A stretch of 64,000 nt of DNA from Omphalotus guepiniiformis. Its lineage: Eukaryota; Basidiomycota; Agaricomycetes; Agaricales; Omphalotaceae. The DNA lies in contig JAQOOI010000073.1 in assembly GCA_028554645.1 (NCBI GenBank), positions 434,001 to 498,000 on the forward strand. The letters are read 5' to 3'. This document shows positions 2,312 to 26,926 of this stretch, in pieces; position 1 is the first letter of the stretch; each line of letters starts with the position of its first letter. The position numbers and the translations under genes are program-made. A model generated the notes under the pieces. It worked only from the letters and a program-made list of their open reading frames with translations, was not told where the DNA came from and ran no database searches.

Positions 2312-2318
2312 GTATGTT

Positions 2319-3012
2319 ATGCTGTTCAAAAGTGTCAAAAAATAATTTACACAAAATATGTGTCACCTCTATTCAAGACATGTTTCTGTGTGTAACCTAC
2401 TTTCTATCTTGGCTGCACACATGCAACACAGAGATGTATGTGTGTGCACACAACACAAATATATGTGTGTGTGCGCGCGCGCAATGTAAAAAATGTGTGT
2501 GCACAACACACACAACATGAAAAATGTGTGCGCACAACACACACAACATGAAAAATGTGTGCGCACAACACACACAACATGGGTTCACAACACACACAAC
2601 ATGGATGTATCACAAATAGCTTTAACCTATGGATAGACACACATTTCTAACAACAAAGCAATATTCTGATCAATGCAGCAATGCATATAAACATAGCCAG
2701 AGAGATAAACCATTAGGATGAGGTATCATAGGCTAGAGTGAGCAATGATTGTAGTAATGCGTATGAACATGACTAGAGAGTTAAACTATTAGGATGAGGT
2801 ATCATAGGCTAGAGTGAGCAATGATTGTAGTAATGCGTATAAACATGACTAGAGAGATAAACTATTAGGATGAGGTATCATAGGCCAGAGTGAGCAATGA
2901 TTGTAGTAATGCGTATAAACATAACTAGAGAGATAAACTATTAGGATGAGGTATCATAGGCTAGAGTGAGCAATGATTGTACTAATGAGTGTGAACATAA
3001 TTAGACTGAAAA
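2319..3012. repeat. Left terminal inverted repeat of element A with satellite arrays
   Basis: The outer ~35 bp are followed by a unique ~90 bp. Next comes an array of ~30-bp units built on ACACACAACATGAAAAATGT (about 2440-2605), then four ~73-bp units containing GATGAGGTATCATAGGC (about 2690-2995). The same blocks appear in reverse order and orientation at 11797-12549 and 23107-23189, so the repeat is roughly 0.7 kb. Reading frames through the array are by-products of the repeat. Confidence 0.85.
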
Positions 3013-3016
3013 GCTT

Positions 3017-4181
3017 TTAAGATGAAGTATTCTCCAAAGCCAGCAGACGATTAGCAACAAGAGTGATAATCTGTGAATGAAAAGACCTTGCTCTAAGGCT
3101 AACGTCCTGGATAAATTCCACTCTGCATTCAGGATGCATCTTAGAGAATAGTGTATTCTCTAGCACCATTTCAAAATCATGCAAAGAAAAGGAACCACCT
3201 GGTTGACTTGTCCTGTGCTGTACCCGTGATCTCACACTGCGCCATGAGCTCTTGATAGCCTGAAGGCAAATCTCATGGTCCATGCAGTCAGATACCTTCC
3301 ACTCATCTGCTGTACCTCTCGGAGCATTCGAAAGTAGTTCGTGAACAGTCTGCTCCATCAAGCGACTCCCTCGAAGAAGAATTAAGATATATCCAGGTTT
3401 CTGAATAAGTGCTAGACATGACTTGAGTCTATCTTTCTGAACCACACAAACACAGATATAATATTCTCACCTGCTTGCTCATCTGAAAGCTGAAGTTTTC
3501 CAGTATAATAGAAATCTCGAAGTGCAGAGGATATCCAATCTAGCTGGTTGTACGAGATGCCGAGAACTAATTTTTGACAAGTAGGGATTGTGTAGCAATG
3601 CGTGATCCTTTTCACCGCATATTGAAAGCCTGGCTCATATTGATATCGGCTGCAAATCTTGAGAAAAGCGATAAGTGTCTCGACAGGAGGTACCCTGTTG
3701 TGGCGGTCTAGATGCATCTCCCTAGTAAAGACACTAAGCAGGCTTGCAACGAGAGTATGAGTATCTACGTACACGTCATAAATGTGCTGTATCAATGCTT
3801 CAAACTCGGCCGATGGAACACCATGTATCTTGATAGGATTTTCAATGGACCCCTCAGCCACAGTGCCAACAGGTTGAACTTCGCCAAATGATAACATGTC
3901 TGCAATAACAGGAATTCGGGCCAACAGAGACTTATGTACATTGTACTGAATGTCACCACACTAATGACAATGGGTCAATGAGTCAATCTTTGGCAAGTAG
4001 TCATGATACGTACTTCAAATGAAATATTACCATCTGAAAAGAAATATTTCTCGTGCTGTTTGACCTGCGAGAGTGGCCGAGTAGGTCCCAAGTCTGATGC
4101 TGTAGAATGACCAAGTTGGAGCATGCTCGCAACTTCAGCAGCTGAGTCCTCTTGCAGCATTGGAGTTGAATTACTGCTCAT
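3017..4181 (-). CDS. BTB/POZ-domain protein of element A
   Basis: A spliced gene on the minus strand, start 4181 and stop 3017. A low-complexity N-terminus of about 45 residues leads to the BTB core. Its signature is KYFFSDGNISFE, an intron, then YNVHKSLLARIPVIADML, and the core ends near LIQHIYD. The C-terminal half is helical with conserved RITH and LDWISSAL motifs shared with the homologue in element B. Three to four ~50 bp introns are apparent, for example after SDGNISFE and after SDEQAG. Agaricomycetes have many BTB proteins of this form, which act as protein-protein adaptors. Its role in the transposon is unknown. The stop abuts the terminal repeat, and the gene is divergent from the transposase with 141 bp between start codons. 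Conservation in both A and B argues that it is an element gene rather than captured cargo. Confidence 0.75.
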
Positions 4182-4322
4182 TATCTAGTAAGGTGTAAAG
4201 CAAGTATAAAGCTTGAGAGGAACGAGTGAACTGAATGAAATGAGGAAGAGAAGATTCTGAACAGTTTAGAACTCAGTAGACGATGTTGGACTTGATTGAC
4301 CGTGACGTGTTTGTTCACATCG
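4182..4322. promoter_or_regulatory. Shared divergent promoter region, element A
   Basis: The BTB start (4181, minus) and the transposase start (4323, plus) are 141 bp apart. The same arrangement with about 136 bp is kept in element B. A short bidirectional promoter is inferred from geometry; no specific element was identified. Confidence 0.45.
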
Positions 4323-6364
4323 ATGACAGTCGACTTCCCCCCTCTTCCTGACTTTGCCTCATCATCGAACTACAAGGAAACTGATTGGTCACCAAATGTG
4401 TATGAAGCGTATGAGAAATTGAGAGCACGATACAAAAGTGCATCTAGTATCTTAATCCAAGAGGCTGATCCACTACGTCTTCAGGTTCAGCTAGAAATTC
4501 TCATTGAGGAGCTACCGCTAGTAGAAGCATTGGAGGACAGTGCAGAGAATGAACACCTTCCATACGAGTGGATTTTAAAAGTGGCGGAGGTGTATGCAAA
4601 TCTCATAAAGACCATAACTGAGGCACAATCCAGTGCGAAGGACAGGTGTGTGCTCAAGTTCAACTGTATCTTATCTTGTACCAACATCTGAACTGCAGGG
4701 ATGAGACAAATATCTACTACGAAAATCTGGTTTCACTCCGTCATACAGGCAAACAAGGCCGCCCTCGCAAAGAAATCAACGCTAGATTTATGAAACAGAT
4801 TGTTCTACCAAAATACAACTTTAGGTTTACAGCCGTCACCTCGTCTCTAAAATTATGTCGGAACACACTCAAAGCTCGGATGAGAGAAGCAAATATCAGC
4901 TACAAGCACTCCTCTATCTCAGATGCAGAACTGGATGCTATCGTACGAACTTATCGACAAACCAAAATTGGATCTGGCATTCGCTACTTGACAGGCCACC
5001 TTCGAAATGTCCTCCAACTCAAAATCCCTCGCTATCGTGTCTATCGTGCTGTGAAGCGGGTTGATAAAGTGGGTAGCATTCTGAGGGGCCGGAAGGGTAT
5101 ACGTCGTCGACCATATAGTGTTAAGCGTCCAAATGCTCTATGGCATGTTGACGGACACCATAAGTTGATCTTGTGGGGTATCGTGATCCATGGAATTGTA
5201 GATGGATTCGACCGTTTCGTATGTGGTTCTCTCTTCACATTTCCAGTGTATTTCTCTATTAATTTGGAACCTTGCAGATCACTGCAATGCGAGCTAGCAA
5301 CAACAATAGAGCTTCAACAGTATTACATCTACTCCAAGACGCAGAGAAAAAGCATGGAGAACCATCGAGAATGCGGGGTGATCGAGGGAAGGAGAACAAG
5401 GGTATTGCACTCTCCATGATTGCACGAAGAGGTTTGAATAGAGGTTCATTCATCTGGGGACCGTGAGTCACTGTAAATTCCATACTTTGTTTTCGACTCA
5501 ACGTCTTTGTCCTAGGTCTACTCATAACACTCGGATTGAGCGTCTATGGGTGGAAGCAGGTACTCAATTCGTGCGACGATGGAGAGCCTTTTTTTTTCGC
5601 CTCGAAGCATTACACGGCCTGGACCGATCAAACCCTCATCACCTTTGGCTCTTGCATGAACTATTTCTAGCGACAATTAACGACGACTGTCAAGAGTTTG
5701 TCTTGGAATGGAACGCGCATCCCATCTCTGGGGAAGGGCATGATCGAAGTCCTGAGGTGCGTGTACAATTAATCTACTCTCAATTTCATACTCATCTTCC
5801 CTTCAGGAAATGCGGTTGCTCGGAAAGCTCAACCAAGGCATATACATCCCTGACGAATGTGAAGGCCTATGTCCAGAGGAGATTGAGAAACGCTACGGTC
5901 TTCTTGGCAGCCCTCTAGTCAACCCAGTAAATCACACTGGCGCCGGATATCTGTCTGACGAAGAGATTGATGACCTTCCCAACCTCGATGAAGATGGTGA
6001 TTCAGATCATGCAGAACCCGATTCATGGGAGGATATGCCTACTGGGTATGATAACCAGTTCATTGAAGCTGTCAACACCCCTCCCCATCGAAATCCCTTC
6101 AAAAACAGGCCAGATTTGGAACGAGTTTTTCGAGAAGCGCTGGCGAGAGCTAACGATGAAGGCATTATTCCTTCAGGTTATGGCATCTTACCAGAAGAAT
6201 GGGAGACGAATGTATATCTACCATATGAAGTCCTTCGTACAGGGAAGCGGGCAGGGAAGGAGCTTCGTGTCGAACTCCCAGATGCTATTTGGCGGCCCCG
6301 AGCTCAGCTATGGGCTCGAGCTCTGGATGTCTGTCTTCACTTGGAAGCTGCCCTTACAGGCTGA
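4323..6364 (+). CDS. DDE integrase-like transposase of element A
   Basis: Five exons joined by ~50-60 bp introns; about 600 residues. The ATG at 4323 (MTVDFPPLPDF) aligns with the start of the element B homologue, so it is preferred over 4296. The N-terminal region is helical, followed by a basic GRPRKE stretch and a helix-turn-helix-like KLCRNTLKARM segment. The catalytic core has D in WHVDGHHKLILWGIVIHG (codon near 5150), D in RGDRGKEN (near 5379) and E in NTRIERLW (near 5539). This is the rve/retroviral-integrase fold found in eukaryotic 'integrase core domain' proteins. The C-terminus is acidic, then ends with a conserved IIPSGYGILPEEW and RELWAR-like block. It presumably cuts and joins the TATGCTGTT termini, giving the 7-bp duplications seen. 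No frame break was found, so the element is potentially autonomous. Confidence 0.8.
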
Positions 6365-7235
6365 ACTATATTTTGCTATACTACTCTAGTTGTATACAAA
6401 TCAAATATTACATCCTGACACCTAAAAACTTGAACACGAATACGTGTCATTTGCAGTGCATCAAGGTTCCACGTGTGCGTACTATCTCTCTCTCCATCGA
6501 CGATGACCTCGTATGTTGTGCAAGCCAAATCAAACTTCGACTCTCTTCTCATATAGAAAACACGCACCTTCAAGAAAAGACTCCATCAGGAATCCATCGA
6601 GCAACGTTCTCGCGGCCTTTTGCCTGCTCAACATCTGTACAGGAATTCTTCAATTGAAACCAAGCACAAAGCCTGCTACGATGGTACGGAAAGGAGGCGG
6701 TAGAATGAGGGGCTGTTGAGGATTGTATCTTTCTCGTTGGATGATTCATTACCCCTTTCTCCTTCGCTTGCTTTCGTATCGCTTTCTTATCACTAATGTC
6801 CCTCTCTTCACAGCTACGATTCATGCAGCGTTGGCACCTTCCTCAATTAAACCCTCAAATACGGTTCAATGTTCAGGTCCCGCTATTTGGACATGGGAAT
6901 ACGAATATATCGAATTATGGCCGTAGCCTCCGAGAGGAAGATGGTATGACAGGGGATATAAGTGATACAGGTATAAATTAGGCATACGAAAGGTCGTGAC
7001 TCTCACTCAACTAAAACATAGTCATGCATACGGTAATGGAATTGGAGGAATATAGTTTCGATGTTTCGAGCGCGAAACTGGAATGCGTCCTCCACGGAAG
7101 TGTGTCGATCAAAGCAGCGAGATATTCCAAAGTCGGCGAGTCTCTCGAAGGCATAAGATGCATAATGCTTAAACATAGCACATGGACAAACGCAAGTATA
7201 TATGTATGCATGTGAGAGCAGCATGTCCAAAGCAG
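6365..7235. other. Element A cargo zone, no recognised gene
   Basis: The sequence lies between the transposase stop and the ribosomal protein pseudogene. Short open frames occur on both strands but none shows a recognisable domain or consistent splicing. It has no counterpart in element B, as expected for independently acquired cargo. Confidence 0.4.
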
Positions 7236-8785
7236 TTACTCCTCATCGTCGTCGGCCTCCTCGCCGCCACCTGCGTGGAACTTCTCGATTCTGCTGCCAA
7301 TTTTCGCCTTGCGCTCAGCAAGGGTGAATCTCGGGGTAAACTCCCTTTCCGCCTTCCAGTCCTTGGCATTCTCGGTGGGCTTGAAGGTAGAGTCTTCCCG
7401 AATATGCATTCGTAATATGCGGAGAACTGCTTCTTGAACCTGATAGACAAATAAGAAGATATAGGAAGTTGATTGATACAAGCGTACCGTTCGTCATCCT
7501 ACAGACATCCCGCGCGGGTGGCGTTGATGGGAAATTGAAGAGAATAAGACACCGTGCTGGCTGGGACCTTCGAACGCAGGGGATTGAGCTAAAAGAATTG
7601 GTTTGTTAACTTCAATGAAAGATACGAGGAGGTAGTATAACACACACCATAATTCCAATACTGCGACGACGAATGGTGATAGGATCGTACAGGATATGTC
7701 TGGCCAGGGTAATCCATAGAAATCCGCGTAAAAAGCAAAGATGGAATCGTCTCGAGGGTGAGTGTGCATGACCAAGTTTATAAGGAAGATGAGAAGAACA
7801 AAGGACCCGTTCCTTATATATGGCTATAGAAAATAATGAATGATGGATCTGGATGAGGAACGGAGTCTTTAAGTCGGACAAAAACTTACCGTTTAATGAA
7901 CGAAATGAAACGACAACGAGTCGTCTCTCGACAACAACAGTACTCTAGGTTTTGATGGGGCTGAAATCTGTGTACGTCCATGGACGTTATAAGACTTGTC
8001 GGTAAGCAGCAAGCCTCCTCCTCTAAGGACTCCATGTACTCAGCAACGTGAACACTGAAGATATACTTTTTCAGCACTTCAGCTCCAGCTCCTTGTTTTC
8101 AGGGTCATAACCGGGAAAATGCTTCTCTGAGTGAGGAATGAAGATACCACCATCAGATGCACCCTTCATCACACCAAACACGCGGGAACCGGTCAAAGTA
8201 CGCTTGAGACCAACGTCGAGGAAGCAGGGCGTCCTCTTCGTCAAGCGCCTCAGTGAGAGTGAAGTCGCCATCGGGTTCTGTGACACCCTCGTACTTGTCG
8301 GCAAGACCCAGTTTCGTTGATGCACGGCGAGCACAGAGAAGACCGGTTGCGTAAGCTGAAAGAGCCAGTCAAGACATATATATTAAGAATGGTACATATC
8401 AATTACGCACCAGCTGTCCAATTAGTAGGGCCGTGGTTGATGCAATACCAAGGCAATTCCTTTGAGTGAGCGGCACATAGGACAAAGTCACCCTGAAGAC
8501 GGGCGTAGACAATCTGGACGAAGATGTCTTTGTTGGTGAAGCGCACGACAAGACGGTGTTTGGATGAGTTACTAAAGGAGAATGCCATGGATGACGAAAT
8601 GAGGTGCTTGTTCTTGGCCTGGGTGGTCAGTCGCTTACGGGCATAGTCTGGAAAGAACCTCGACAGAAGTACATGACAGTAGAAACATAAGACTTACAAT
8701 CGGTTTTGCCCTCTCTTCGTCTACGGTACTTGACCTGGAATCGAGAGAAGTAGGCATCTGAATTGACCTTTTTGACGAACGACAT
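7236..8785 (-). pseudogene. Captured ribosomal protein L5 (uL18) pseudogene
   Basis: A degenerate, intron-containing copy of the 60S ribosomal protein L5 gene. The start is at 8785 (MSFVKKVNSDAYFSRFQ). Exon 1 ends at 8698, exon 2 covers 8647-8411 and exon 3 starts at 8355. Clear family blocks are [48 protein letters not shown] and the C-terminus FKPTE followed by RKAKIGSRIEKF and an acidic tail. The frame is broken after TEALDEEDA, again near KYIFSVHVAEYMESLEEE, and the stretch down to about 7480 is rearranged. Retained introns mean it was taken up as DNA, not through an mRNA copy. It lies wholly inside element A, between two element genes, and has no equivalent in element B. A functional product is very unlikely. 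Confidence 0.85.
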
Positions 8786-8889
8786 CTGAAGGAGCAGTCA
8801 TATTCTCGCACTATCTGAGCACCTCAATTCTACGAACCTTCTGCTTCGTCCTCCGATTCCGATATATTCGTGAATTTCTCGGTCTTGAT

Positions 8890-8980
8890 GTGATGTACGA
8901 GTATGATCTATTCGCCGTTATCAATCATGAAGGTCAGATGAACAACGGGCACTACACCAACTTTGCTGCAGTTGTTCAAA
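8890..8980 (+). pseudogene. Ubiquitin carboxyl-terminal hydrolase fragment
   Basis: About 28 codons encode YDLFAVINHEGQMNNGHYTNFA. This is the catalytic-histidine box of USP-type deubiquitinases (NHxG then GHYT), closest in form to the Ubp8 type. The similarity stops abruptly after NFA. Only this one box is visible, so it is a captured exon fragment, not a gene. It lies about 100 bp from the 5' end of the L5 pseudogene and is transcribed in the opposite direction, so both may have come from one host locus or from separate captures. Confidence 0.65.
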
Positions 8981-10199
8981 GACATGACAATATTGCTTGC
9001 GATAGGTGTCGGTTGGGAGTAAGAAATTCTCGAAGACTGTTGGCTGACGACCGGTCAGTTGAAGGGCCGGTCATCACATGATTCCGAAACCTTGAATCCG
9101 TCAGAATCCGTCCTTCCAGTTTTCTTCCTCGCAACGCTCTGTCAACTTGAATGCAAATATCGTCGAATCATTCGTACGAAGCCGGGAATTAGTGAGTTTC
9201 AGAGATTCTTTAACAGTAGTAGATGTTCAGGCATGTCTGATTTTACGCCAATTCAGGATGACTGTGACAGTTTGATGGTTGCCGCCCGACTCGAGAATTG
9301 TCCTCACTGTTTCTCTGAACCTAAAGCAAGACCTTCGAGATTTACACCCCGGATACTTTCGAGATGCGAACGAGTTCGCTGTGGATACAACTAGATGGAC
9401 AACCTTTCTTTATCGTTGGCATGTTTTCGGAACTAGAGGTCTGGAAATCGAATCTAACTTATATATATTCTATTAACGAGGACATGTAGGATGTGCAAGC
9501 TTATTTGGCTCTAGGCAAACAACTTTGATGGCTATCAACTCCGTATCACGAACCTTCTGCGCGTTCGTCAACTATGCAGGCCTCCTTGTGTTCCAACACG
9601 CTGGGATTAGCAACTTCGACGGGATCTGCGAGTTTTGAATCAGCAGATGGGAGACGTTGGCTATATCAAGCAAGGGTAGGTTTGTTCGACTCAGAGGATC
9701 CTGAAGATATCCAAAGGGGCAATCTTGGCTAGAAGGAACAACATTACGGACACGAAGGTGTGTGCTGCATTTTTTTTTGAAGAAATGTGAGTCACATTCT
9801 TCAAGCAGGGTATCGTCTTCCCACCCGCGTCGCCGTTGTCAGCGACTGCTGAATAAAGTTGATGCATGAGACATTGGGACAGTCCTGAGATGACTGCTGC
9901 AAAGCTTCTCACTGTTGATGTATCGTTGGATCTCCCGTAACTGCGAGTGCAAGTATTCTTACATATATATATATAATGTATTCCAGTGTATGTTCCTCTC
10001 GGGACGAAGCTCAGAAATAAGAGGTAAACATATGTTGAACATGCTCAACGCAACACGTAAATCACGATCGGAAAGTTCACTGGCCTCGTTGTCAGACGAT
10101 TCTCTCTTATATCTAGCTCTCAGGCTCTCACTCTCTTTCGCTTTCTCTCCTGCATTACACGTTCCTTTCTAATCTTCATTTTCCGTTTTTCAGCTAAAG
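8981..10199. other. Element A cargo zone, no recognised gene
   Basis: Short open frames on both strands; none has a family signature I recognise. The stretch just before 10200 (CT-rich, ending TTTCAGCTAAAG before ATG) is the probable promoter and leader of the Cys/His gene. Confidence 0.35.
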
Positions 10200-11796
10200 A
10201 TGGGCAGGTATCAATCCAGCTCTCCTGCTCCTCGTACTGCCTCTCGTCCTTGCGAATTCATCCTCTCTCCACCTGGCAGCAAATTCCACACAGTCTGCAG
10301 CTGTCCTTCTTTCAACGGAGATGATGACAAGGATAATTGCCTTGATTGTTCTCATCCTGGTTCCCAGCATGCTCGCGCCACACTGGAAGATCCTATTGAT
10401 GTCCCAGAAGCCACAGTTTCGAAATTTGTTGCTTCTTCCAAGAAGAAGAAGACTGTTGCCGACATTGTTAGAGAGTCATTAGCTACTAAGGCGCCTAACA
10501 CTCTGAGCAAATTCGATGCTGCTGATAAGGAGGCTAATAGCGGTCTATTCGCAAAGTCGAAGAAGAGTGGCAAGTGCGTGATATTTTCCTCTTCTGCTTC
10601 CTTATTGAAAACTATGAACTTACTTGGCTGTCACGGTAGGGCTCAGTCTAAATCTAAAGATTCTAAACATCGAGAGACTTCAAACAATTGGCCGAAGATT
10701 GCTGGCATCATTCTCAATCCCTGGGGCACACGAAAAAATGTGAGTAGCTGTGATATCTGTCGATTTCGTACAATTTGAAAAATGCCTGAACCCATTCTCT
10801 ATCTCTAGGAGAGGACAGGCATTTCGAAGCTCATTAGCTCGACTCCGGCACATCCTTCTTCGACCCTTAGTAACTATAAGAGTTTAGGACTTGTCTATGT
10901 GCAAGCGGGTGGTTTTCCTTTCAATACAGAAATGTCGCATGAGGAATTGTCAACTTGGCTTCGTGAACGCTTACCCGTTATGGCCCATCTCTACCGTAAG
11001 CTTAAAGGGAAAGATGGAAGTGCGCCATGGGGAGTCTGTGACTTCAGAGATCGAACACTGACTTTGTCAGTTGAAGACGAGCCAGATGCTGAGACGTTGT
11101 ATGACAAGAAGAGTGGCCGAAGTGCAAAGTCACAATATATATATATTGGTGAGTATTCATCAAAACATTTATTAATTTCTGACCCTTTCTATTCTACAGC
11201 CTCTCGCATGGCAATTCCGAAGGACAAGATCATGCAATATTCCGGAAAGGATGAGTCGGCTTTCAAGCGCAATTTGAATGCTTTGCTTATTGCGGAAAAT
11301 CGACGTGATGGTGAGCCTTTTCCATTTTTGGATTTTCAATTTAATTAATTGTATTTCAGAAATTTCCGAAGATGATAGTGGGGACGATGATGAAGATGAC
11401 GACGAGTCTGATGGCCCTTATTTGAAGAAGTCAGATGAAGAATATAAGCCCCAGAAGCGCAAATATGAAGTGATTGCATCTGATTCAGACTCAGAAGGCA
11501 AGTGGATTTAACAGGATTTTATGGGGTTTATCTCATGGTTCAACAGGGTCACCTGTTCCGAAAAGAAAGTCAACCCGTTTGGCAGACATGACAACCCCTC
11601 GCAATAGCCAAGCAGGTAATGTCTTACATAAATGTGATATTGTGTTGGCTGAATGTTGTTACTAGCTCATACTCATGTTGTTGACCTCTCTATGCTTGAC
11701 TCTGATGCTGATATGGAAGATGATGGCTCTGTCTATACTACACCTGATCCATGGGACAAGAATAGGGTATTTGTCCTTGATCAAAATACTTTTTAG
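10200..11796 (+). CDS. Cys/His-rich accessory protein of element A
   Basis: A spliced gene from ATG 10200 to TAG 11796 with about six exons. The N-terminus carries a likely zinc site: CSCPSFNGDDDKDNCLDCSHPGSQH (about residues 39-63) holds CxC, CxxC and two histidines. A KKKKTVADIVRESL segment follows, then (after introns) the conserved IILNPWG block and a globular part with LSTWLRERLPVM, SAPWGVC and LTLSVEDEPDAETLYDKK. A later acidic, nuclear-type tail (DDSGDDDEDDDESD, PKRKS) ends with DPWDKNRVFVLDQNTF. The homologue in element B keeps all of these blocks, including the PDPW-KNRVFVLD end. No known family is recognised. DNA or chromatin binding is a guess from the zinc-like motif and basic/acidic tail. 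The stop lies at the inner edge of the right terminal repeat. Confidence 0.65.
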
Positions 11797-12549
11797 GTGA
11801 CACTTGCTTCTATTATTGCTTACTCTAGCCTAGAAATTTGCTCACAAGTCTGATTGATTCCACACTCATTTACTGCAATCATTGCTCACTCTAGCCTATG
11901 ATACCTCATCCTAATAGTTTACCTCTCTAGTTATGTTTATACGCATTACTACAATCATTGCTCACTCTAGCCTATGATACCTCATCCTAATAGTTTACCT
12001 CTCTAGTTATCTTTACACACATTACTACAATCATTGCTCACTCTAGCCTATGATACCTCATCCTAATAGTTTATCTCTCTAGTTATGTTTATACGCATTA
12101 CTACAATCATTGCTCACTCTGGCCTATGATACCTCATCCTAATAGTTTAACTCTCTAGTCATGTTTATACGCATTACTACAATCATTGCTCACTCTAGCC
12201 TATGATACCTCATCCTAATGGTTTATCTCTCTGGCTATGTTTATATGCATTGCTGCAATGATCAGAATATTGCTTTGTTGTTAGAAATGTGTGTCTATCC
12301 ATAGGTTAAAGCTATTTGTGATACATCCATGTTGTGTGTGTTGTGAACCCATGTTGTGTGTTGTGCACCAACATTTGTCATGTTGTGTGTGTTGTGCGCA
12401 CACATTTTTCATGTTGTGTGTGTTGTGTGCACACATTTTTCATGTTGTGTGTGCTGTGCACACACATTTTTTACATTGCGCGCGCGCACACACACATATA
12501 TTTGTGTTGTGTGCACCTCTGTGTTGCATGTGTGCAGCCAAGATAGAAA
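11797..12549. repeat. Right terminal inverted repeat of element A, inner part
   Basis: An inverted copy of 2390-3012. Five ~73-bp units with GCCTATGATACCTCATCC (about 11870-12235) are followed by the CA-rich 30-bp array (about 12330-12535). The repeat is cut at 12549 by element B; its outer 83 bp are at 23107-23189. Confidence 0.85.
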
Positions 12550-12556
12550 GTGGGTT

Positions 12557-16134: not shown

Positions 16135-16861
16135 CTTACCAGAGCTGCATGTCAGAGGTCCAGAGCGTGAGGTTATCCCGGAGCAGTTGCATGATGATAG
16201 TCGAGTCTTTGTAGCTCTCCTCTGAGGAAGTGTCGAGCTCGGCAATGGTGTCGTCGAATGCAAGATGGCATGCGCGGTCAGGGCTGTTGAGGATTTCGTA
16301 GTAGAAGACGGAGAAGTTCGGGGCAAGATCCAGACGAATGGGATGTGTAGGAGGGAGTTCAGGGACGGCAACGTCAGAGGCAGCCTTGTAGGCTTCTAAT
16401 GACTTGTGAGCTTTCTGCTTGTCACCAGTGGCAAACTCGGCGAGATAACCGTGGTAAGTCTCCATCCTGTTATGAAGATGTCAGCGTTGGGATAAACACT
16501 AAAATAGAGGGTGCCTAACATCTTGTGATAGAAGACGTTCGACTCGCCTAAGGCGGCAGAAGGAATGAGGTGCTTGTCAAGGATTTCGAGGACATCCTCG
16601 CAGACCTTGGCGAGCTCGGACTCGATCTTGCAGCCTTTGATCATCGAAACCTGGGCTTCATTGCACAACTCTCCACGAAGCAGATCGTGCACCGATGACA
16701 TTCTTGTAGGCGACAGAAAGATTTGCTCCTCAACAGTGAGTTCTTGGACAGACGAAGCCACTCGTTTGCACGCGGGGTTTATCATGTGAGCTAAACAACT
16801 CACCTTCATAATGCTCAGCTAGCTTGACGAGGTAAACAGAGTCTTCACGGGATTCAGCCAT
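16135..16861 (-). pseudogene. Captured 14-3-3 protein pseudogene
   Basis: The start is at 16861 (MAESREDSVYLVKLAEHYE). The classic 14-3-3 blocks are present: [88 protein letters not shown] and [19 protein letters not shown]. Small deletions and substitutions remove residues needed for phosphopeptide binding: the ERYDEMV part is gone, and the VIGARRASWR helix is scrambled to SSVHDLLRGEL. An intron is retained near 16466-16510. The copy stops at TSDMQLW followed by a GT donor, so the last exon is missing. 14-3-3 proteins are essential phosphoserine-binding adaptors in fungi; this copy is almost certainly non-functional. It lies inside element B between the Cys/His and transposase genes. Confidence 0.85.
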
Positions 16862-18544
16862 CTACATGAAAGCAGTCGTAAGTTTTCAAAACGCTCATGG
16901 AAAAGCATAACACGTTGACTCACAGTAGTTGATGGGTGCTTCTACAACGAGAAACACCCTTGAAATTACGGAAGACAACGATGAGGCCAAACGGAACGTA
17001 GTAAAACAAGGAAGGAAGGAGGGATGGTAGGGAAACGTAGACAGAAACACACTTATGAGATTTCTCACACGTTTTTCTAGTTTCTCGCCAGTATCGCCCT
17101 GTCGCCCTGGTGTCGCCACAGGTCGCCACTCATATACGTATACATAGACGACATATTTCGCAAGCCGCACGCCTTATGTAAATCCGATTCCCACCTGTAT
17201 GTCTCCTCCCTCCCTTATCTGCATACCCTCTCGGCTGACCTATCAGGATTAAACCCTACCTCGTGAAACGCAGGATGCTATAAGGAACTTTTTCGGTGAA
17301 GGACATCTCGTTGGTGAGTTAGAAGTTCCTTTCTTGTGGTTTTTTCCGTCTCTTCGTTGCTTGGTGCTGAGTTTTGGTATTGGTTTGAACCACAAAACTG
17401 TCACTAACGCGCCAACCCACTTTTCAGGTCAAAGTGTTCAAACTTACCGCGTGGGAGGAGGAGAGGATAGAATGGGCTTTGGATGGCGTCGGTGGTGCTG
17501 CCAAAGACGGTGAATGGTGGCGCCTACATCCTCGTCGTCGAATAAGAATGGACGTACGCTGCACGCATTCGAACCCGCTGCTTCTGCATCATGTCCAGAC
17601 CGTGAAGTTGTGCGCGAGGTGACGGAGGATGGTGTAGTTGAGATTGAGGGTCGTAGCTTAGTCGTATTTCCTGAGGGGAGGTTGATCCTGGGCCAACTGC
17701 TGGGAGGTTAGTGTATTCCTGAATGTTGTATTGCAAGAAGCGCTGACCTCTTTGATGGTGCGTTCCTCTCTAGCAGGTAAACAGCGTGACTCGTATGTCC
17801 CTGCTCCTATTCCTTCTCTCACTCATCCTAACCGCTTTCTTTCCCCGTTCTAGACGAAATGGCCCGTATCTCTTGATTCCCGTATCTATTGGGAGGCCTA
17901 CGGAGGTCGTCAAATATATTATATGTACAAGCCGCACGCCTTATGTAAATACGATTCCCACCTGCGTGTAACTTCTTTTCTTCCGCAAACAAGACCCAGA
18001 AGTGGCGTATCTAGCTGACCTGAAACCAGGTGAGCAAGTTCAAAGCAACTAATATACACAACGAACTCACCACTTTACATTCAGTTGTGTCTCCTCTTGT
18101 CTCATACTCGCACGATCTCATTCCATAGAAAGACGACAGTCGTATAGTCCTCCACCCATAACCGCATTCTTAAGATTGGGTACTAGGTAAGGTCGATGTC
18201 TCTCCACGTACCCTTGCTCATCTCTTCCTAGTCTGGGCCTCACCTCCATTACCCTCTTTCCTCCGTCTCCTACGATCTCGTCTCATTCGGCAGTATCGTC
18301 GATGGGACCTGGATCAAACGACATAGATCCCATGCGAGGGAGGAGTTGGTGAGGGCTAGCGAGGAATGGAAGATGGTTCACTGCAAGGACGGTGTAGATG
18401 GTCATCTTATGACGATAAACGACGCGACGCCTAATGGAGAATCGAACACGAAATACCGGGAATTACATGGACACCAACGTCATCACCTCACTTCGCCTAT
18501 GCTCTCGCACCGTTCTGCATGGCACGCTCTCACTCCACGAGCTC
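16862..18544. other. Element B cargo zone, mixed host-derived debris
   Basis: The segment from 16862 to about 17160 is probably the 5' flank of the captured 14-3-3 gene. A 39-bp direct repeat (CAAGCCGCACGCCTTATGTA) occurs at 17161-17199 and 17928-17966, so parts of the zone were duplicated. An open stretch at 17434-17720 (+) has codon-like texture (LTAWEEERIEWALDG, EIEGRSLVVFPEGRL) but no family I recognise. It could be upstream exons of the MATE fragment that follows. Confidence 0.4.
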
Positions 18545-18905
18545 TGCATCCTACAGGCAACTCTCGTTTCGTTAGGTCTCGGCGGTGTAGGTCGAACCAC
18601 AAACGAATGGTGGGCTTGGGAGTTGATTGGGTTAGCAGGGAATTTGTAAGTCCTCCTTCACTTCAAGTGATTCATCAATCACTCAATATCATGTCAGACT
18701 CGGGCCAACGGCTCTTACATCTCAATCTGTAATGCTCGTATCTTGTTCCACGATATTTGAAGCACCATTTGGGAGTAGCTACGAATGTTTCGGTGAGTCA
18801 ACGCACCTACACTCTTTCTCCCTTCGGCTTACCCAACCATTTGCAGCGTTGGTAACTTACTCGGTAAACGTCGACCGTGTCGACCGTGTCGGGCTGGAAT
18901 TCAGG
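18545..18905 (+). pseudogene. MATE-family efflux transporter fragment
   Basis: Three exon pieces read in order across two ~60-70 bp introns: NEWWAWELIGLAGNL, then LGPTALTSQSVMLVS followed by IFEAPFG, then RVGNLLGK. These match the conserved middle of MATE multidrug transporters, where EWWAFE, an AAQSV segment and RVGNLLG occur in this order. The frame between pieces is damaged, and the rest of the 12-helix protein is missing. It is a DNA-level capture with introns kept, sited in element B next to the transposase 3' end. Confidence 0.6.
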
Positions 18906-19130
18906 CACCTATCGTCATTGTTAGTAGCAGTACATAGAACTTTTTTTACCTCCCACGTACTACTGGTACTGAATGAATATAACTGACCTTGAACATATCA
19001 CAAACAAGTAATAGGCAACCCATCTGGCAGAGAGCGCAAACAATAGTATATTATTTCCTACCCATTCTTTGTTACGCGTACTACTAGATCCTCAGACCAT
19101 CAAACAACGAAGGACCGTATGAGCTCGAGG
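18906..19130. other. Element B, downstream flank of the transposase
   Basis: No gene seen; likely the 3' untranslated region of the minus-strand transposase plus the end of the captured fragment. Confidence 0.35.
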
Positions 19131-21174
19131 CTACTTTGCGATTACAGCCTGCATATGAAGGAGAATATCTAACCCTCGAGCCCACAGCTCAGCACGAGGT
19201 CGCCAAATACCATCTGGGAGATCGACACGAAGTTCTTTTCCTGCTCGCTTCCCTGAACGAATAAGCTCGTAAGGGGGATATACACCATTTTCCCATTCCA
19301 CGGGCAAGATACCGTATCCTGAAGGAAGAATGTCTTCGTTGGTAGCCATCGCAATTGCATCTACAAATACTTTCTCGAGTTCCGGGCAGTCTTTGAAGGG
19401 ACTTCGATGTGAAGGGGTTTTGACAGCTTCAATGAACTGGTTGTCGTATCCTGTGGGTAAGTCGTCTTCCACTTCCGAATCACTTGAATCATCCTCGTCA
19501 TCAAGACGATGGCCCGGGAGATCATCAACGTCTTCATCAGGCAAATACCCAGCACCGGTATGGTTGGAAGGATGAACTTCAGGGCTGCCAAGAACACCAT
19601 ATCTCCGCTGGATTTCTTGCGGGTCAAGGCCTTCGCAATCGTCGGGAATGCACATCCCCTCGTTGAGCTTCCCTAATAGCCTCATTTCCTAAAGAGATGT
19701 TCAATACAAAATTGCGAGTTTTAAAAGAAATAAAATACACACTTCGGGGCTCTTATCATGTCCTTCTCCAGAGATAGGGTGTGCATTCCATTCCAACACA
19801 AACTCTTGACAATCTTCGTTTATCATGCCCAGAAAGAGTTGATGTAAGAGCCATAGGTGATGAGGATTTGACCGATCTAGGCCATGAAGTGACTCGAGAC
19901 GGAAAAAAAAGGCTCTCCATCGACGAACAAATTGAGTGCCCGTCTCCACCCATATACGTTCAATTCGAGTGTTACGCGTTGACCTACGTTGAGTAGTAAA
20001 GATTAATATGTTGTACTGAATTGGACAGCTTCAACTTACGGTCCCCAAATGAACGAACCTCTATTTACCCCCTTCCGTGCTATCATGTAGAGCGCAGCAA
20101 GTTTGTTCTCTTTTCCTCGATCCCCTCGTAGTCTTGATGGTTCACCACATTTCTCTATTGCCTCAAGAAGTAGTTCAAATACAGTTGAGGCCTTGTTATT
20201 GACACTAGCACACATGGCGGTAATCTGAAAGACGAAACAATTAGTCAAACATGTTTCTGCGCCATTCAGAAATGCACTCACAAAGCGATCAAAACCATCT
20301 ATGAATCCGTGAATTACAATACCCCACAGAATCAATTTGTGATGTCCGTCCACATGCCACAGAGCGTTTGGACGCTTGACACCATATCGACGACGACGTA
20401 TATTCTTCCGGCTCCTCAGCATTGTTCCTACTGCATCAACTCGTCTCACTGAACTGTAGACACGGTGGCGCTGGATTTTGAGCTTGTGGATATTCCGAAG
20501 GCGCCCTGTCAAGTATCGGACACCAGACCCTATCTTGGTTCGACGATATAATCTGACAAGAGCATCTAGTTCAGTGTTCGAAATAGAAGAGTACTTGTAG
20601 TTGACTTTCGACTCTTTCAGCCGAGCTTTGAGAGTGTTTCGACATACTTTGATTGACGATGCAATGGTTTTGAGCCTAAAGTTGTACTTCGGTGAAGCAA
20701 ATCTCTTCATGAACCCAACATGGACTTCCTTCCGAGGCCGGCCTCTTCTGCCACTACGTGTAACTGTTACTGGATTCTCGAAGTAGATATTGGATTCATC
20801 CCTGTAAAATCTCTGTGTCAACATGAAAATCCAACATGCCTCACAACACACCTTTGTCTCGCAGTGTACTGTGCTTCATACAAGGCTTTTATAATCTCTC
20901 CAAAGACTTTGGCCACCTCCAAAATCCACTCTTGCGGAACATGTTCATCCTCTGCACATTCCTCAAGGGCCTCAAGCAACGGAAGTTCTTCAACAATAGT
21001 TTCCAACTGGATCTGCAGGCGCAGTGGATCTGCTTCCTGAGACAAAAGACGAGAAGCACTTTGGTAAAGTGCTTTTAGCTTTGCATGCACTTCATAGACA
21101 TTCGGAGACCAACTCTGTTCCTCATAGTGTGATGATAGTGGGAATGTAGGCAGAGAAGGGAATCTGGCTGTCAT
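19131..21174 (-). CDS. DDE integrase-like transposase of element B
   Basis: Same exon structure as the element A gene: five exons and four short introns, start 21174 (MTARFPSLPTF) and stop 19131. The catalytic triad is present: D in WHVDGHHKLILWGIVIHG, D in RGDRGKEN and E in NTRIERIW. The basic GRPRKE segment and the RELWAR-like C-terminal block are also kept. The protein is clearly homologous but well diverged from the A protein along its whole length, so A and B are separate lineages, not recent copies. All exons are open, so it is potentially active. It is transcribed divergently from the BTB gene with about 136 bp between starts. Confidence 0.8.
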
Positions 21175-21310
21175 CTGCCAAGTACTGAGTTGACAGTCAA
21201 GGTCGTGTGTTTTGGTTGTTGACACAAAGTAAAAAGATGTTTGCCGGCTGATAGCTTCTTTCTCTTTCAACTCAACATCTCTGATACCTCTCATTTCATA
21301 CACTATCATT
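21175..21310. promoter_or_regulatory. Shared divergent promoter region, element B
   Basis: This short gap between the divergent transposase and BTB starts has the same size and arrangement as in element A. A bidirectional promoter is inferred from this conserved layout. Confidence 0.45.
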
Positions 21311-22480
21311 ATGAGTACTACTGGATTCGATACAGTGGATATCCCTTCTGTGAATAGCTCTGGCTCAAGTACTGTAGTGAACACGCCTGCCACCTCCGTG
21401 GATGGATCTAGTGTTGTTGAGGTGGCCAATCTACTTCAACCTTCTACTGTGATCTCTCGACAACACGAGAAGTACTTTTTCCCAGATGGTAACATTGCCT
21501 TTGAGGTGAGTTTCATTCCTGCATAGCCGCAGACATCTTTAGAGATTTTCTCCCAGTGTGGTGGTTCCGTCTACAATGTACACAAGTCACTGCTCACTCG
21601 GTTCCCGGTCATGGCCGACATGTTCGCATTTGGTGACATTCAGCCTGCTAGCACTGTTTTGGAGGGCTCCATCACCAATCCCATTAAGCTTCAAGGTGTT
21701 CGACCTGAAGACTTTGAAGCATTATTGATGTACATATATGACTTGTACGTGTTTGCATTATGATCTATTTTGAACTGTGATTTATCTAAAGGCATATTTT
21801 TGTTTTAGAGAGATGCATCTTGATTGTCATATTCCTTCAGTGGAGACACTCATCTCGTTTCTCAGGATCTGTGATATGTACCAATACACACCTGGATTTG
21901 AGTATGCTGTCCGAAGGATCACACACTCCTACAGCATTGGATTTTGTCAGAAACTGGTCCTTGGATTGTCTTATAAGCAGTTAGACTGGGTATCTTCTGC
22001 ATTGAAGGCATTGTTCTCAACAGGAAAGCTTCAGCTATCCACAGAACTAGCAGGTAAGAATATTTTCACCAAATTTATTTGATCTCACAATCAGTTTCAG
22101 AATCTATTCAGAAAACCTCGCATATGATGGTTCTCCATCTAGGCAGCAGATTATTGGAACAGACTCTGCAAGAGCTGCTTGCAACCCCTCCAAGGCCAAC
22201 ACCAAGGAATTGGTCGGTGAATGGTTGTGAGAATCATCACTCATGCCTTGAATCAATCAAATCCTCCTGGCGTCATGTGCGAACTAGGGCTCTTAGCAAG
22301 CTTAACCAACCTGGTGGTTTCTCATTGGCAGATCTGGAAACAGTGTTGGAAAATACAGCATTCTCCCGTATGAATCCAGAGTGTCGAGCTTGTTTTACTG
22401 ATGATATTGGTGCAAGGGCAAGGTCTTTCTATGATCAGATCATCACTGTAATTGCAAAGCGCTTGCTTGACACTGTATAG
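21311..22480 (+). CDS. BTB/POZ-domain protein of element B
   Basis: Start 21311 (MSTTGFDTVD) and stop 22480. The BTB core is KYFFPDGNIAFE, an intron, then YNVHKSLLTRFPVMADMF, ending near LLMYIYD. After a second intron the C-terminal half resumes at REMHLDCHIPSVETLISFL and continues with RITHSYSIGFCQKLVLGL, LDWVSSALKAL and a last exon with SRLLEQTLQELL. It matches the element A protein over its full length. The stop codon directly precedes the first satellite unit of the terminal repeat. A non-autonomous relic of the same gene survives in element C. Confidence 0.75.
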
Positions 22481-23106
22481 TTGACCACACTCATTTGCTT
22501 GATACTTGCTTTGATCTAGAATATCACATCTTAATAGTTGACCACACTCATTTGCTTGATACTTGCTTTGATCTAGAATATCACATCTTAATAGTTGACC
22601 ACACTCATTTGCTTGATACTTGCTTTGATCTAGAATATCACATCTTAATAGTTGACCACACTCATTTGCTTGATACTTGCTTTGATCTAGAATATCACAT
22701 CTTAATAGTTGACCACACTCATTTGCTTGATACTTGCTTTGATCTAGAATACCACTTAATAGTCATCTTTCTGAAGTTATTCCCAAGCAATATACAATGA
22801 TGTGTGTACCATCTGCTATAGCGCGAGCACTACCTGCCATAGCGCGAGCACTTTCTGCTATAGCGCGAGCACCAACTGCCATAGCGTGAGCGTCAACTGT
22901 CATAGCGCGAGCACCAATTGCCATAGCGCGAGCACTATCTGTTATAGCGCGAGCACCAACTGCCATAGCACGAGCAACAACTGCAATATTGTGAGCACCA
23001 TCTGCTATTGTGTGATCAAGGAGTTGTATCAGCTAAGACTAAGTGAGATATGGTGTTGATAGATATTACGTGCTAAAATTATTTTTTGACACTTTTAAAC
23101 AGCATA
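22481..23106. repeat. Right terminal inverted repeat of element B
   Basis: Five ~59-bp units (TGATACTTGCTTTGATCTAG in each) at about 22490-22760 are followed by the 21-bp CATAGCGCGAGCAC array (about 22800-22990) and the terminal ~110 bp. It has one more 59-bp unit than the left end. Confidence 0.85.
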
Positions 23107-23189
23107 GTGGGTTACACACAGAAACATGTCCTGAATAGAGGTGACACGTATTTTGTGTAAATTATTTTTTGACACTTTTGAACAGCATA
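23107..23189. repeat. Outer 83 bp of element A right terminal repeat
   Basis: Complement of 2319-2400 with few changes. It is split from the inner part (11797-12549) by element B and begins with the second GTGGGTT target copy. Confidence 0.85.
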
Positions 23190-23245
23190 GTATGTTCTTT
23201 GTCTCGCAGTGCGTCTATCCTTTACTGACATATCGCTTATTAACT

Positions 23246-24363: not shown

Positions 24364-24687
24364 TATGCTGTTTAATAGTGTCAAAAAATAATTTTAGCAC
24401 AAACTTCTATAAACATCATATCTCTCTTAGTCTTGGCTGTATACAAACCCTTGATCACACAATAGCAGATGGTGCTCACAATATTGCAGTTGTTGCTCAC
24501 ACAATGGCTGGTAGTGCGTGCACTAGGACAGATAGTGCTCACACAATGGCAAGTAGTGCTCGCGCTATGATAGCTAGTGTTCGCGCTATGGCAGATAGTG
24601 CACGCGCGATCTTATATTGCTGGAAAATAACTTCAGAAAGGTGACTATTAAGTGGTGTTCTAGATCAAAGCAAGCATTAAGCAAATG

Positions 24688-24949
24688 TGTAACACCTCAT
24701 ACAACTTAGCCAGATAAGATAATATTGAGATAAGTGATGCTTATCTCAATTATCTTATCACATTTATATGACCACATGACCACTTTGTTGGTCTTTATTA
24801 GCATCACAGGGCTCTGGTCCTATAAAAGTAGCTTAAATTTATCTATCTGTATAGCATATGTAGACTGAATATATCTGTGTTGTGCTCACAGATGATAGAT
24901 AAGTTATAACTCAATATACAGATAATACTAACTAGTATTATCTCTTATA
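24688..24949. mobile_element. 262-bp insertion in element C terminal repeat, LTR-like
   Basis: The block splits a satellite unit between GCAAATG and AGTGTGGTC. It starts TGTAACACC, contains a TATAAAAG box near 24820, and has two palindromes (24713-24759, ~20-bp arms; 24920-24943, 10-bp arms). The first ~54 bp reappear inverted at about 26567-26620 in the opposite terminal repeat. A TG start and TATA box suggest a small solo LTR, but no target duplication or CA end is visible. Confidence 0.4.
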
Positions 24950-25029
24950 AGTGTGGTCAACTATTAAGATGTGATATTCTAGATCAAAGCATATTAAGCA
25001 AATGAGTGGGCAGAGCTATAAGAATATCC

Positions 25030-26010
25030 CAAGTATCCTAGATGAAGGCAGAGACTAAAGTGAATCAAAACAAACACTCTATCTTTTGTCCATAAATCAA
25101 GTCCAGTACTAGTGGCATGATCCAATTTCATTTTGTTATTGAATTAGAGCATATTCGAACCAATGTAAGATCATAAAGTATGATTATCACAAAATACAGA
25201 TTTACATGAAATATGTTCATTATGAATTGTATAATAGATTATACATCTTGTAAGTGAACATGAATTCTCAAAAGTAACAGTGCCAGCTTGGTATTCTCCC
25301 TTTCATCATTGCTCCTCTGTTTTATCTCTACAGCTAGCCTGTGTAAAGTGAAAGTGGTCAGTATCCTCTGCAACTGTCAATTTGATTCCTGCAGAATGAA
25401 ATTTTATCTCATTCAATGAACTTGAACTTGAAGTACTAACAACAAGTACTAATCACTGTATATTGAAACTAACAAGCTTGAATAATAATTTTCTATACAC
25501 TAATGATTTACTATAAGATCATTTAAATGTTATATCACTGGTCTTACATTGGTCTGAATATGCTCTATTCCTGATCAGTGATATTAATGACATTAGAGTT
25601 GGCTTAAGTATTCCATCCTGGATATTTGCAAGTTTATCTTCAATACTATCATGGAGTGTAGTCATACTAGCCAAACAAGTTGACTTTCATATCTAGACAG
25701 AAAATTGGGCTGAATCTACAATCAGACATATTGATATGATATGAAATTAACTATAGATGCTACACACCAGTTTTGCTATCAAAGTCAGAGTTGGGAATAT
25801 TATGATCTTGTTTGCACATCTGAGATTGCTAGTATACACCATCAGATTTTCTTGATTCATGCTCTAAGTCAGACTCCCTGGGCAGGTTGATCTCTGCACA
25901 AATTAATTTAGAGCCCAAAATATGATATAAAAATTGCCAAAAAAAAGTTAACATTCTATTGGACACAAGAAGTCCATTATATGCATGCTTGAAAGTCAAT
26001 TGATCTTGTC
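25030..26010 (-). pseudogene. Decayed Cys/His gene remnant in element C
   Basis: Nucleotide-level similarity to the 3' half of the element B gene (13140-13720): the end exon near 25030-25140, then, after the MITE, exon and intron pieces around 25570-26010. All frames are broken and the zinc-like N-terminal part is missing. Confidence 0.6.
25146..25566. mobile_element. 421-bp MITE
   Basis: Terminal inverted repeats of ~25 bp: AGAGCATATTCGAACCAATG at the left and its near-complement ending GAATATGCTCT at the right. It is flanked by ATT at 25143-25145 and 25567-25569. Removing it restores the alignment with element B (GAATTCCTGATCAG). AT-rich and non-coding. The 3-bp duplication would suit a PIF/Harbinger-type mover, but this is not certain. 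Confidence 0.8.
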
Positions 26011-26021
26011 CACAAATCATA

Positions 26022-26534
26022 CACTCTATGACATTGTATTTTGTCAAAAACTGGTCCTTGGACTGTCCTATAAGCAGTTAGACTGGGTATCTACTGCCAT
26101 TGAAGGCACTATTTTCAACAGGTAAGCTCTATCTATCCACAGAACTAGCAGGTAAGAATATTTTCACCAAGATATTTGATCTCACAATCTGTTTCAGAAT
26201 CTATTGAGACAATCTCATATATGATGGTTCTTCATCTAGGCAGCGGATTACCATGCCATCTCTCCAAGGCCAACACCAAGAAATTGGTTGGTATATAGTT
26301 GTGGGAATCATCACTCATATCTTGAATCAATCAAATTCTTCTGCTGTCATGTGCAAGCTAAGGCTCTCAGCAAGCTTAATTGCAGATCTGGAAACAGTGT
26401 CGAAGAATACAACCTTCTCCTATATGGATTCAGAATATTGAGCTTGTTTTACCAATGATATTGATGCAAGGACAAGGTTCTTCTATAATCAGATTATTAT
26501 TCTTATTGCAAAGTGCTTACTTAGCACTATATAG
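26022..26534 (+). pseudogene. Decayed BTB gene remnant in element C
   Basis: Corresponds to the C-terminal exons of the element B BTB gene (about 21935-22480). Recognisable stretches include FVKNWSLDCPISS-like DNA near 26045 and the final exon near 26380-26530. There are several substitutions and frame breaks, and the BTB core itself is absent. Confidence 0.6.
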
Positions 26535-26926
26535 TTGACCATACTCATTTGCTTAATACTTGCTTTGACACTTATCTCAATATTATCTTATCTTGCCAAG
26601 TTGTACAAGGTATTACACAGTTGCTTAATGCTTGCTTTGATTAGAATACTACTTAATAGTCACCTTTCTGAAGTTATTCTCCAGCAATATAAGATCGCGC
26701 ACGCACTATCTGCCATAGCGCGAACACTAGCTATTACAGCGCGAGCGCTACTTGCCATAGTGTGAGCACTATCTGTCCTAGCGCGAGCAACAACTGCAAT
26801 ATTGTGAGCACCATCTGCTATTATGTGATCAAGGGGTTGTATACAGCTAAGACTAAGAGAGATATGATGTTTATAGAAGTTTGTGCTGAAATTATTTTTT
26901 GACACTTTTAAACAGCATACAGACAG

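Follow-up and report, generated by a model that had tools for sequence, protein, structure and literature searches.

The window analysed here, 64,000 nucleotides of the Omphalotus guepiniiformis genome (GenBank assembly GCA_028554645.1, contig JAQOOI010000073.1, positions 434,001 to 498,000 of the forward strand, or C76:434001-498000 in our contig numbering), carries three related DNA transposons, A, B and C, which are probably gene-capturing, recently active cut-and-paste elements of the IS3EU type. Judged from their sequences, A and B look autonomous. A preliminary description of this DNA had proposed a family of terminal inverted repeat (TIR) transposons in which a DDE transposase resembling integrases is accompanied by a conserved pair of accessory genes, and this proposal stands on the shared 31-bp ends, the match of the transposase to the Pfam family rva_4 and the ratios of non-synonymous to synonymous differences (pN/pS) of 0.26–0.38 in the gene trio. 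The suggestion that 7-bp target duplications mark a superfamily of its own was not supported: 6-bp duplications predominate, and the TA..TA ends are those of IS3EU (PMC10045372), which is known in fungi. The captured pieces of host genes inside A and B were absent from that description.

Element ends, layout and target sites

The terminal motif TATGCTGTT has six matches in the window, where 0.59 would be expected, and none of 100 shuffled sequences reaches that count. It starts at 2318, 12557 and 24364 on the forward strand and ends at 23106, 23189 and 26919 on the reverse strand, and these six copies are both ends of A, B and C, which bears out their shared termini. A longer end motif of 31 bp is common to the three elements at 94–97% identity. 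When the host genome (42.5 Mb in 80 contigs) was searched with this 31-bp pattern and up to three mismatches, 33 ends were obtained (17 forward and 16 reverse) against none for the reversed control; they form 16 paired elements at 15 distinct sites and leave one lone end (L025). The family formed by A, B and C is real.

Element A lies on the forward strand, its main part at 2318-12556 and its right end at 23114-23189, beyond the nested element B (12557-23106, reverse strand, genes inverted), which is placed within the right inverted repeat of A. Element C (24364-26919, forward strand) is a non-autonomous deletion derivative inserted in a Helitron. The lengths given previously agree with ours, 10,315 bp for A (with B and one GTGGGTT copy left out), 10,550 bp for B and 2,556 bp for C; the three elements were correctly delimited except that A is not contiguous and begins at 2318. 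The left inverted repeat of A (2318-3030, forward strand, 713 bp) aligns to the right repeat at 91% and contains 31-bp and 76-bp tandem arrays, and an inverted repeat of B (12557-13151, forward strand, 595 bp) is mirrored at 22507-23106 with 98% identity and contains 21-bp and 57-bp tandem arrays. The arrays are situated at 2489-2581, 2680-3030 and 12658-13118, and A and B have different array units despite almost identical outermost 31 bp.

The target duplication, taken as the longest exact match between the flanks, was 6 bp at 12 of the 15 distinct sites and 7 bp at the other three (window B, window C and L021a); for this count of 16 elements, L023 and L024, one site that is present twice, were counted once. 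Mismatched pairs of left and right flanks, used as a control, agreed over at least 5 bp in only 1 of 238 cases. A length of 7 bp is therefore not a family rule. The preliminary description had assigned 7 bp to all three window elements, which remains correct for B (GTGGGTT, 12550-12556 and 23107-23113) and C (CAGACAG) but not for A, whose duplication is GTATGT (6 bp, 2312-2317 and 23190-23195), with the element starting at 2318 as in the other members; it reaches 7 bp only if the first T of A is assigned to the target. The collection of full copies that had been proposed as a check showed the termini in every two-ended element, partly because these were gathered by their ends, and a 7-bp duplication at 3 of the 15 distinct sites.

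Two near-identical copies of A, A2 on C18 and A3 on C69, match it end to end (99.79% and 99.92%), and both are without B, which shows B's empty site. For C, the joined flanks match a second Helitron copy on C12 over 837 bp without gaps at 98.7%; one letter speaks against this correspondence, the C12 site having T in place of the first C of CAGACAG. The A copies differ from one another by 0.08–0.23%, the second copy of B (B2) is 99.4% identical to it, and the C-type copies C1, L018, L019 and L021b are identical (100%) over 2,556 bp; we infer that the movement was recent. C is related to B but has lost internal sequence, with a degenerate BTB-like remnant still in place, and because the transposase is missing from it, it presumably moved in trans.

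An element on C19, D (15.7 kb), was considered as a large autonomous member and set aside: about 2.1 kb of it are 97% identical to the C-type element L020, whereas the interior has its matches at other loci, with a 1.1-kb stretch that recurs near the right end of D.

Transposase

The transposase genes of A (4323-6364, forward strand) and B (19131-21174, reverse strand) have five exons each and predict proteins of 608 amino acids; their four GT-AG introns of 50–59 bases lie in matching places, and there is no internal stop. Both frames are open and carry D259, D316 and E351, with 56 and 34 residues between them (DD34E), which upholds the earlier reading of open transposases with D, D and E. These three residues are invariant or nearly so in an alignment of 22 proteins, namely B and 21 of 110 relatives, in which the numbering is one higher after the second exon.

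Pfam rva_4 matches the transposase at 1.7e-52 and rve at 1.3e-6, the latter below the rve cut-off. Three relatives were compared with the prokaryotic NCBIfam models of IS481 and IS3: P0001 and P0005 match both (3.6e-12 to 2.1e-7), and P0002 matches IS3 only (0.0045). Among three single-frame pieces of the window two match IS481 (5.3e-7 and 6.3e-5) and one matches nothing; all of these IS481 and IS3 matches are far below the family cut-offs of the models. No HHCC motif precedes LWHVD, where only scattered cysteine and histidine residues occur (five in A and eight in B, one and two of them cysteines), and the Pfam scan of the transposase reported no integrase zinc domain. None of the 110 protein relatives bears a superfamily name; the named ones are mostly agaricomycete proteins, the best being from Paramarasmius palmivorus (52%) among 7,993 candidates scored. 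A sequence search of PDB with the transposase profile gave no match at 0.01.

Further rva_4-type transposase loci were seen on C47, C71, C12, C72, C20:397024, C77/C41, C22, C76:1219420 and C6/C12/C21. They are 34–58% identical to B in their best piece, and some exist in near-identical copies, the C6/C12/C21 loci being three nearly identical ones.

Accessory genes

As had been described, A and B carry the same three genes in the same order, a BTB-like gene, the transposase and a third gene (gene 3), B being inverted in the window. The BTB-like gene (3017-4181, reverse strand, in A, where it is divergent from the transposase; 21311-22480, forward strand, in B) consists of four coding blocks in each element. 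Gene 3 of A (10200-11499, forward strand) has a cysteine/histidine-rich start, a conserved middle and an acidic end, its 3' structure being provisional, and that of B (13630-14719, reverse strand) has its last two blocks in different frames. The start of gene 3 shows a C-x-C, C-x-x-C, H-P-G-x-x-H pattern in both elements; a Pfam search with gene 3 gave no match, and its predicted structure (predicted local distance difference test, pLDDT, 38) is too poor for use.

Over the aligned coding blocks of A and B, the transposases are 69% identical (604 codons, pN 0.173, pS 0.668, pN/pS 0.26), the BTB-like genes 61% (312 codons, pN 0.251, pS 0.749, pN/pS 0.33) and the gene 3 copies 54% (222 codons, pN 0.304, pS 0.794, pN/pS 0.38), the three ratios being rough because synonymous sites are nearly saturated. 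At the level of coding sequence, all members of the trio show constraint between A and B.

The names and the integrity of the accessory genes have to be weighed against several results. The YNVHKSLL motif of the BTB-like gene resembles fungal BTB proteins. The Pfam BTB match of the B protein, at 19.1 bits (0.0015), nevertheless stays under the cut-off of 20.5, so that by this measure it does not qualify as BTB/POZ; the B exon alone gives 18.2 bits (0.003) and the A exon alone no BTB match, and the fold model of the exon (pLDDT 59) lends BTB no support. A PDB fold search with this model, too poor for the purpose, returned no match at E 0.001. In gene 3 of B, the frame changes near 13800-13811, identically in B2, and the gene is probably broken in both B copies.

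Genome matches to the BTB-like gene (n = 28) all fall in A, B and small C-type elements, including D, and those to gene 3 (n = 15) in A, B and one locus on C16. Protein relatives at E 0.001 were found for neither gene among 3,029 and 3,073 candidates in word-limited searches with approximate queries; this absence says little because of the word limit and of query errors at splice points.

Host-gene cargo between the transposase and gene 3

A and B do not have the same interval between the transposase and gene 3; in each it is filled with a chain of host-gene copies of its own. In A, the segment 6700-10170 matches, besides the three A copies, C75 (85%), C17 (91 and 86%), C62 (79 and 90%), C45 and C9 (92%), C61 (95%) and C65 (70%). 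The chain begins with a copy of the host locus C75:866132-866317 (6688-6868, 86%, gene not assigned) and continues with two pieces of a protein-kinase locus from C17 (6886-7141, reverse strand), and then with the ribosomal protein L5 gene region from C62 (7141-8816, reverse strand), in which 7141-7500 is the less similar and 8014-8816 the more similar part. The L5 copy is split by an insert (7501-8013) that has CCT on both sides and matches C45 and C9. An exonic fragment from the C61 gene for a ubiquitin hydrolase (UCH) (8842-8967, forward strand) and a copy of the host locus C65:2777809-2778275 (9157-9584, gene not assigned) complete the chain.

In B, the matches of the segment 14800-19100 other than those to the two B copies lie on C62 (83 and 77%), C8 and C6 (76–80%), C69 (67–78%) and, with a weak piece, C20 (71%). 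The copy of the host 14-3-3 gene region from C62 (15284-17000, reverse strand) contains frame-breaking indels; it is accompanied by a copy of a C8/C6 locus (17225-17913, 80%, gene not assigned) and by pieces of a C69 locus (17972-19041, forward strand), the donor of which has only a weak MatE match (0.043). No host-gene cargo was recognised in C within the searched part (24620-26300).

Pfam was applied to both cargo and donor frames. Six of ten cargo frames gave a match, to Ribosomal_L5e (9.3e-14 and 1e-7), Ribosomal_L18_c (8.1e-6), UCH (1.1e-5) and 14-3-3 (3e-38 and 3.1e-11), and four gave nothing; ten donor frames gave 14-3-3 (two), L5e, L18_c, UCH, Pkinase and the weak MatE match, with three frames unmatched. 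The L5 and 14-3-3 copies extend across gaps of the donor frames that resemble introns and into the flanks, and for this reason the copied material was probably DNA and not processed RNA. Some junctions between pieces are tight (7017/7019 and 7141/7141, where the C17 and C62 pieces abut without a spacer), whereas gaps of 17, 25 or nearly 200 bases separate other pieces.

As a measure of how specific such matches are, an equal-length stretch of the element core (3000-6480) had matches in A, in B and at just one other transposase locus, on C47; the two stretches intended as host controls (44000-47470 and 27200-30670) proved to lie in other repeats, which makes them uninformative. For the L5 region (1,601 bp), matches are confined to the host locus itself and the three A elements. 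The mosaics recur in all three A and both B copies (100% after rounding, the whole interval not being letter-identical), which indicates that the cargo moved with the element.

Six copied exons are 89–96% identical to their donors, and frame-breaking indels in five of them (the exception is the 126-base UCH piece) suggest that the copies are decaying. Against this stand the absence of in-frame stops in the aligned codons and pN/pS values of 0.13–0.94, below 1 in all six exons on few differences, so that the case for decay rests on the indels; the pN/pS values are silent on selection in the copies because the donor branch is itself constrained. The identification of donors meets a further objection in that some match at only 67–80%, and the true donor may thus be a paralogue or may have been lost.

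Neighbouring repeats

A 1266-amino-acid open frame with DUF6570 and Helitron_like_N (26883-30683, forward strand) represents the Helitron, and C is inserted in or just before this frame. Matches to the C12 copy of the Helitron fall into two parts separated by about 8.5 kb, so that this copy, too, is probably interrupted. Inside C, a block of about 425 bp (25145-25570) with inverted ends TAGAGCATATTC is also present on C22, C10 and C17 at 76% and is probably a separate small transposon. The segment 44000-47470 belongs to an abundant repeat; of its 42 scored matches, many are close to 96% identical along all 3.5 kb. At C19:672830-686348 (L015 and L016), about 1.1 kb recurs at both sides, inside a C-type element, with five long matches at 98–100% including itself; this repeat may be a long terminal repeat (LTR) retrotransposon.

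Discussion

IS3EU is described as lacking the HHCC motif, with TA..TA ends in every complete family and a duplication that is usually 6 bp long; 6 bp alone would also fit Polinton (PMC10045372). The family described here has the usual 6-bp duplication, a DDE core related to IS3/IS481 and no HHCC, and its 16 two-ended elements all start with TATGCTGTT and end with AACAGCATA, i.e., have TA..TA termini; it was filed as IS3EU on these grounds, and these features fit this superfamily. Two points weigh against the assignment: the uniformity of the termini arises partly by construction, the elements having been gathered via the end motif with up to three mismatches, and the match is to the description of IS3EU and not to Repbase or Dfam sequences. 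The HHCC domain and 4-bp duplication of Ginger1 (PMC10045372) are not found here. IS481EU, for which that text gives ends of TNT..AYA in T. vaginalis or TGT..ACA in H. meleagridis and duplications of around 4, 15 or 25 bp, was set aside because of the duplication lengths, 6 or 7 bp at all 15 sites here, even though the TAT..ATA ends fit the T. vaginalis pattern, though not that of H. meleagridis.

It is improbable that the family is a superfamily in its own right, so far undescribed and defined by 7-bp duplications and the gene trio. The exact 7-bp duplications of window B, window C and L021a, the failure of two word-limited protein searches to return relatives of either accessory gene at E 0.001 and a comparison with IS3EU made by description would favour it, but the 6-bp majority does not, and TA..TA ends with an IS3/IS481-like DDE core are stated marks of IS3EU. 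Moreover, accessory genes already vary among fungal IS3EU elements, with alpha-kinase and TET/JBP genes in some (PMC12730594) and GATA, CCHC and DUF3577 domains in Styx (PMC10853768). That the BTB-like gene and gene 3 are passengers uninvolved in transposition is rather unlikely, though it deserves more weight: in both B copies the frame of gene 3 looks broken, and elements of rusts (PMC12730594) and Zymoseptoria (PMC10853768) carry other genes instead. Nonetheless, both genes predate the split of A and B, whose transposases are now 69% identical, and have been retained since, with pN/pS of 0.33 and 0.38 at almost saturated synonymous sites.

A different origin of the cargo, by insertion of separate mobile elements or segmental copies into ancestral A and B instead of capture, is quite improbable. 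It would suit the piece at 7501-8013, which sits inside another piece between CCT repeats and matches the two loci on C45 and C9, and the B piece at 17225-17913, which has four genomic matches on C8 and C6. The main pieces, though, match ordinary genes (14-3-3, L5, kinase and ubiquitin hydrolase), outside its host locus the L5 region turns up in the A copies alone, and two pieces of different origin meet without a spacer at 7141.

In the preferred reading, that of gene-capturing IS3EU elements, the DD34E transposase would bind the 31-bp ends, and perhaps also the tandem arrays in the long inverted repeats, excise the element and join it to target bonds staggered by 6 and sometimes 7 bp, as the enzyme type and the duplications suggest. 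The BTB-like protein and gene 3 would be standing parts of the lineage kept by selection, with roles that might be regulatory or lie in targeting or complex assembly. The stretch between the transposase and gene 3 may act as a slot into which host-gene DNA, introns and flanks included, was copied several times, most likely by template switching during repair of the excision gap; the resulting chimeras would then have travelled with the element. Gap repair with template switching is one capture model discussed for Pack-TIRs in PMC8277862. It is favoured here for two reasons: little sequence intervenes between pieces from separate loci, and non-coding DNA is present in the copies. As a generalisation, which we put forward tentatively and hold to be somewhat short of an even chance, agaricomycete IS3EU elements may constitute a lineage with a fixed trio and be autonomous gene collectors that repeatedly take up host-gene DNA in one slot behind the transposase, by template switching in gap repair, and spread chimeric copies of housekeeping genes.

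Comparison with known systems separates what is new from what is not, within the parts of the cited reports that were accessible. IS3EU has already been reported from rust fungi and Tuber, and IS3EU, among other lineages, captured a TET/JBP gene (PMC12730594); it also appears in the repeat annotation of Ganoderma (PMC8955403) and Phlebopus (PMC12411881). The IS3EU/GingerRoot description (PMC10045372) agrees with our elements in termini, usual duplication, DDE core and lack of HHCC, and its available text does not mention a BTB-like gene, gene 3 or host-gene mosaics, which are present here. The fungal IS3EU elements with TET/JBP and alpha-kinase genes (PMC12730594) share 6-bp duplications, inverted repeats of more than 30 bp and an extra gene between the transposase and another gene; the rust families end in TAYGG..CCRTA, in contrast to TATGC..GCATA here, and a TET/JBP gene is carried there, whereas ours carry gene pieces and other accessory genes. 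Styx of Zymoseptoria (PMC10853768), the transposase of which was linked to IS3EU by its authors, likewise has 6-bp duplications and recent activity and resembles our elements in its four open reading frames in 7.9 kb, but its accessory genes have GATA, CCHC and DUF3577 domains, and a host-gene mosaic is not described in the accessible part of that report.

Pieces of host genes are likewise mobilised by Pack-TIR elements of animals (PMC8277862, the main text of which does not contain the term IS3EU), Pack-TYPE elements of plants (PMC8903248) and a fungal hAT element with histone H3 (PMC6710886). These belong to other superfamilies, and the carriers described here encode an uninterrupted transposase: host-gene pieces lie between inverted repeats and are mobilised with the element, as in Pack-type elements, but the non-autonomous carrier of the plant definition (PMC8903248) does not describe A and B, whose transposases are uninterrupted. 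Gene-capturing Helitrons of Pleurotus (PMC4289320) also take up gene pieces in an agaricomycete and are rolling-circle elements.

Helitrons are not known to have inverted repeats or target duplications. IS3EU itself is a little-studied superfamily. Literature searches on rva_4/PF24764, on IS3EU with BTB/POZ and on IS3EU with capture terms, in which subscription papers were poorly covered, found nothing joining these subjects among the papers listed. Gene capture by DNA transposons is already known (PMC8277862, PMC6710886, PMC4289320), and the pair of BTB-like gene and gene 3 together with the host-gene mosaics is new relative to the literature consulted. Because the copies are nearly identical, the ends clear and two of the transposase genes uninterrupted, and because empty sites exist for two insertions, both the movement of these elements and the roles of the accessory genes are testable; host-gene mosaics in transposase-encoding elements would add IS3EU to the gene-shuffling DNA transposons of fungi.

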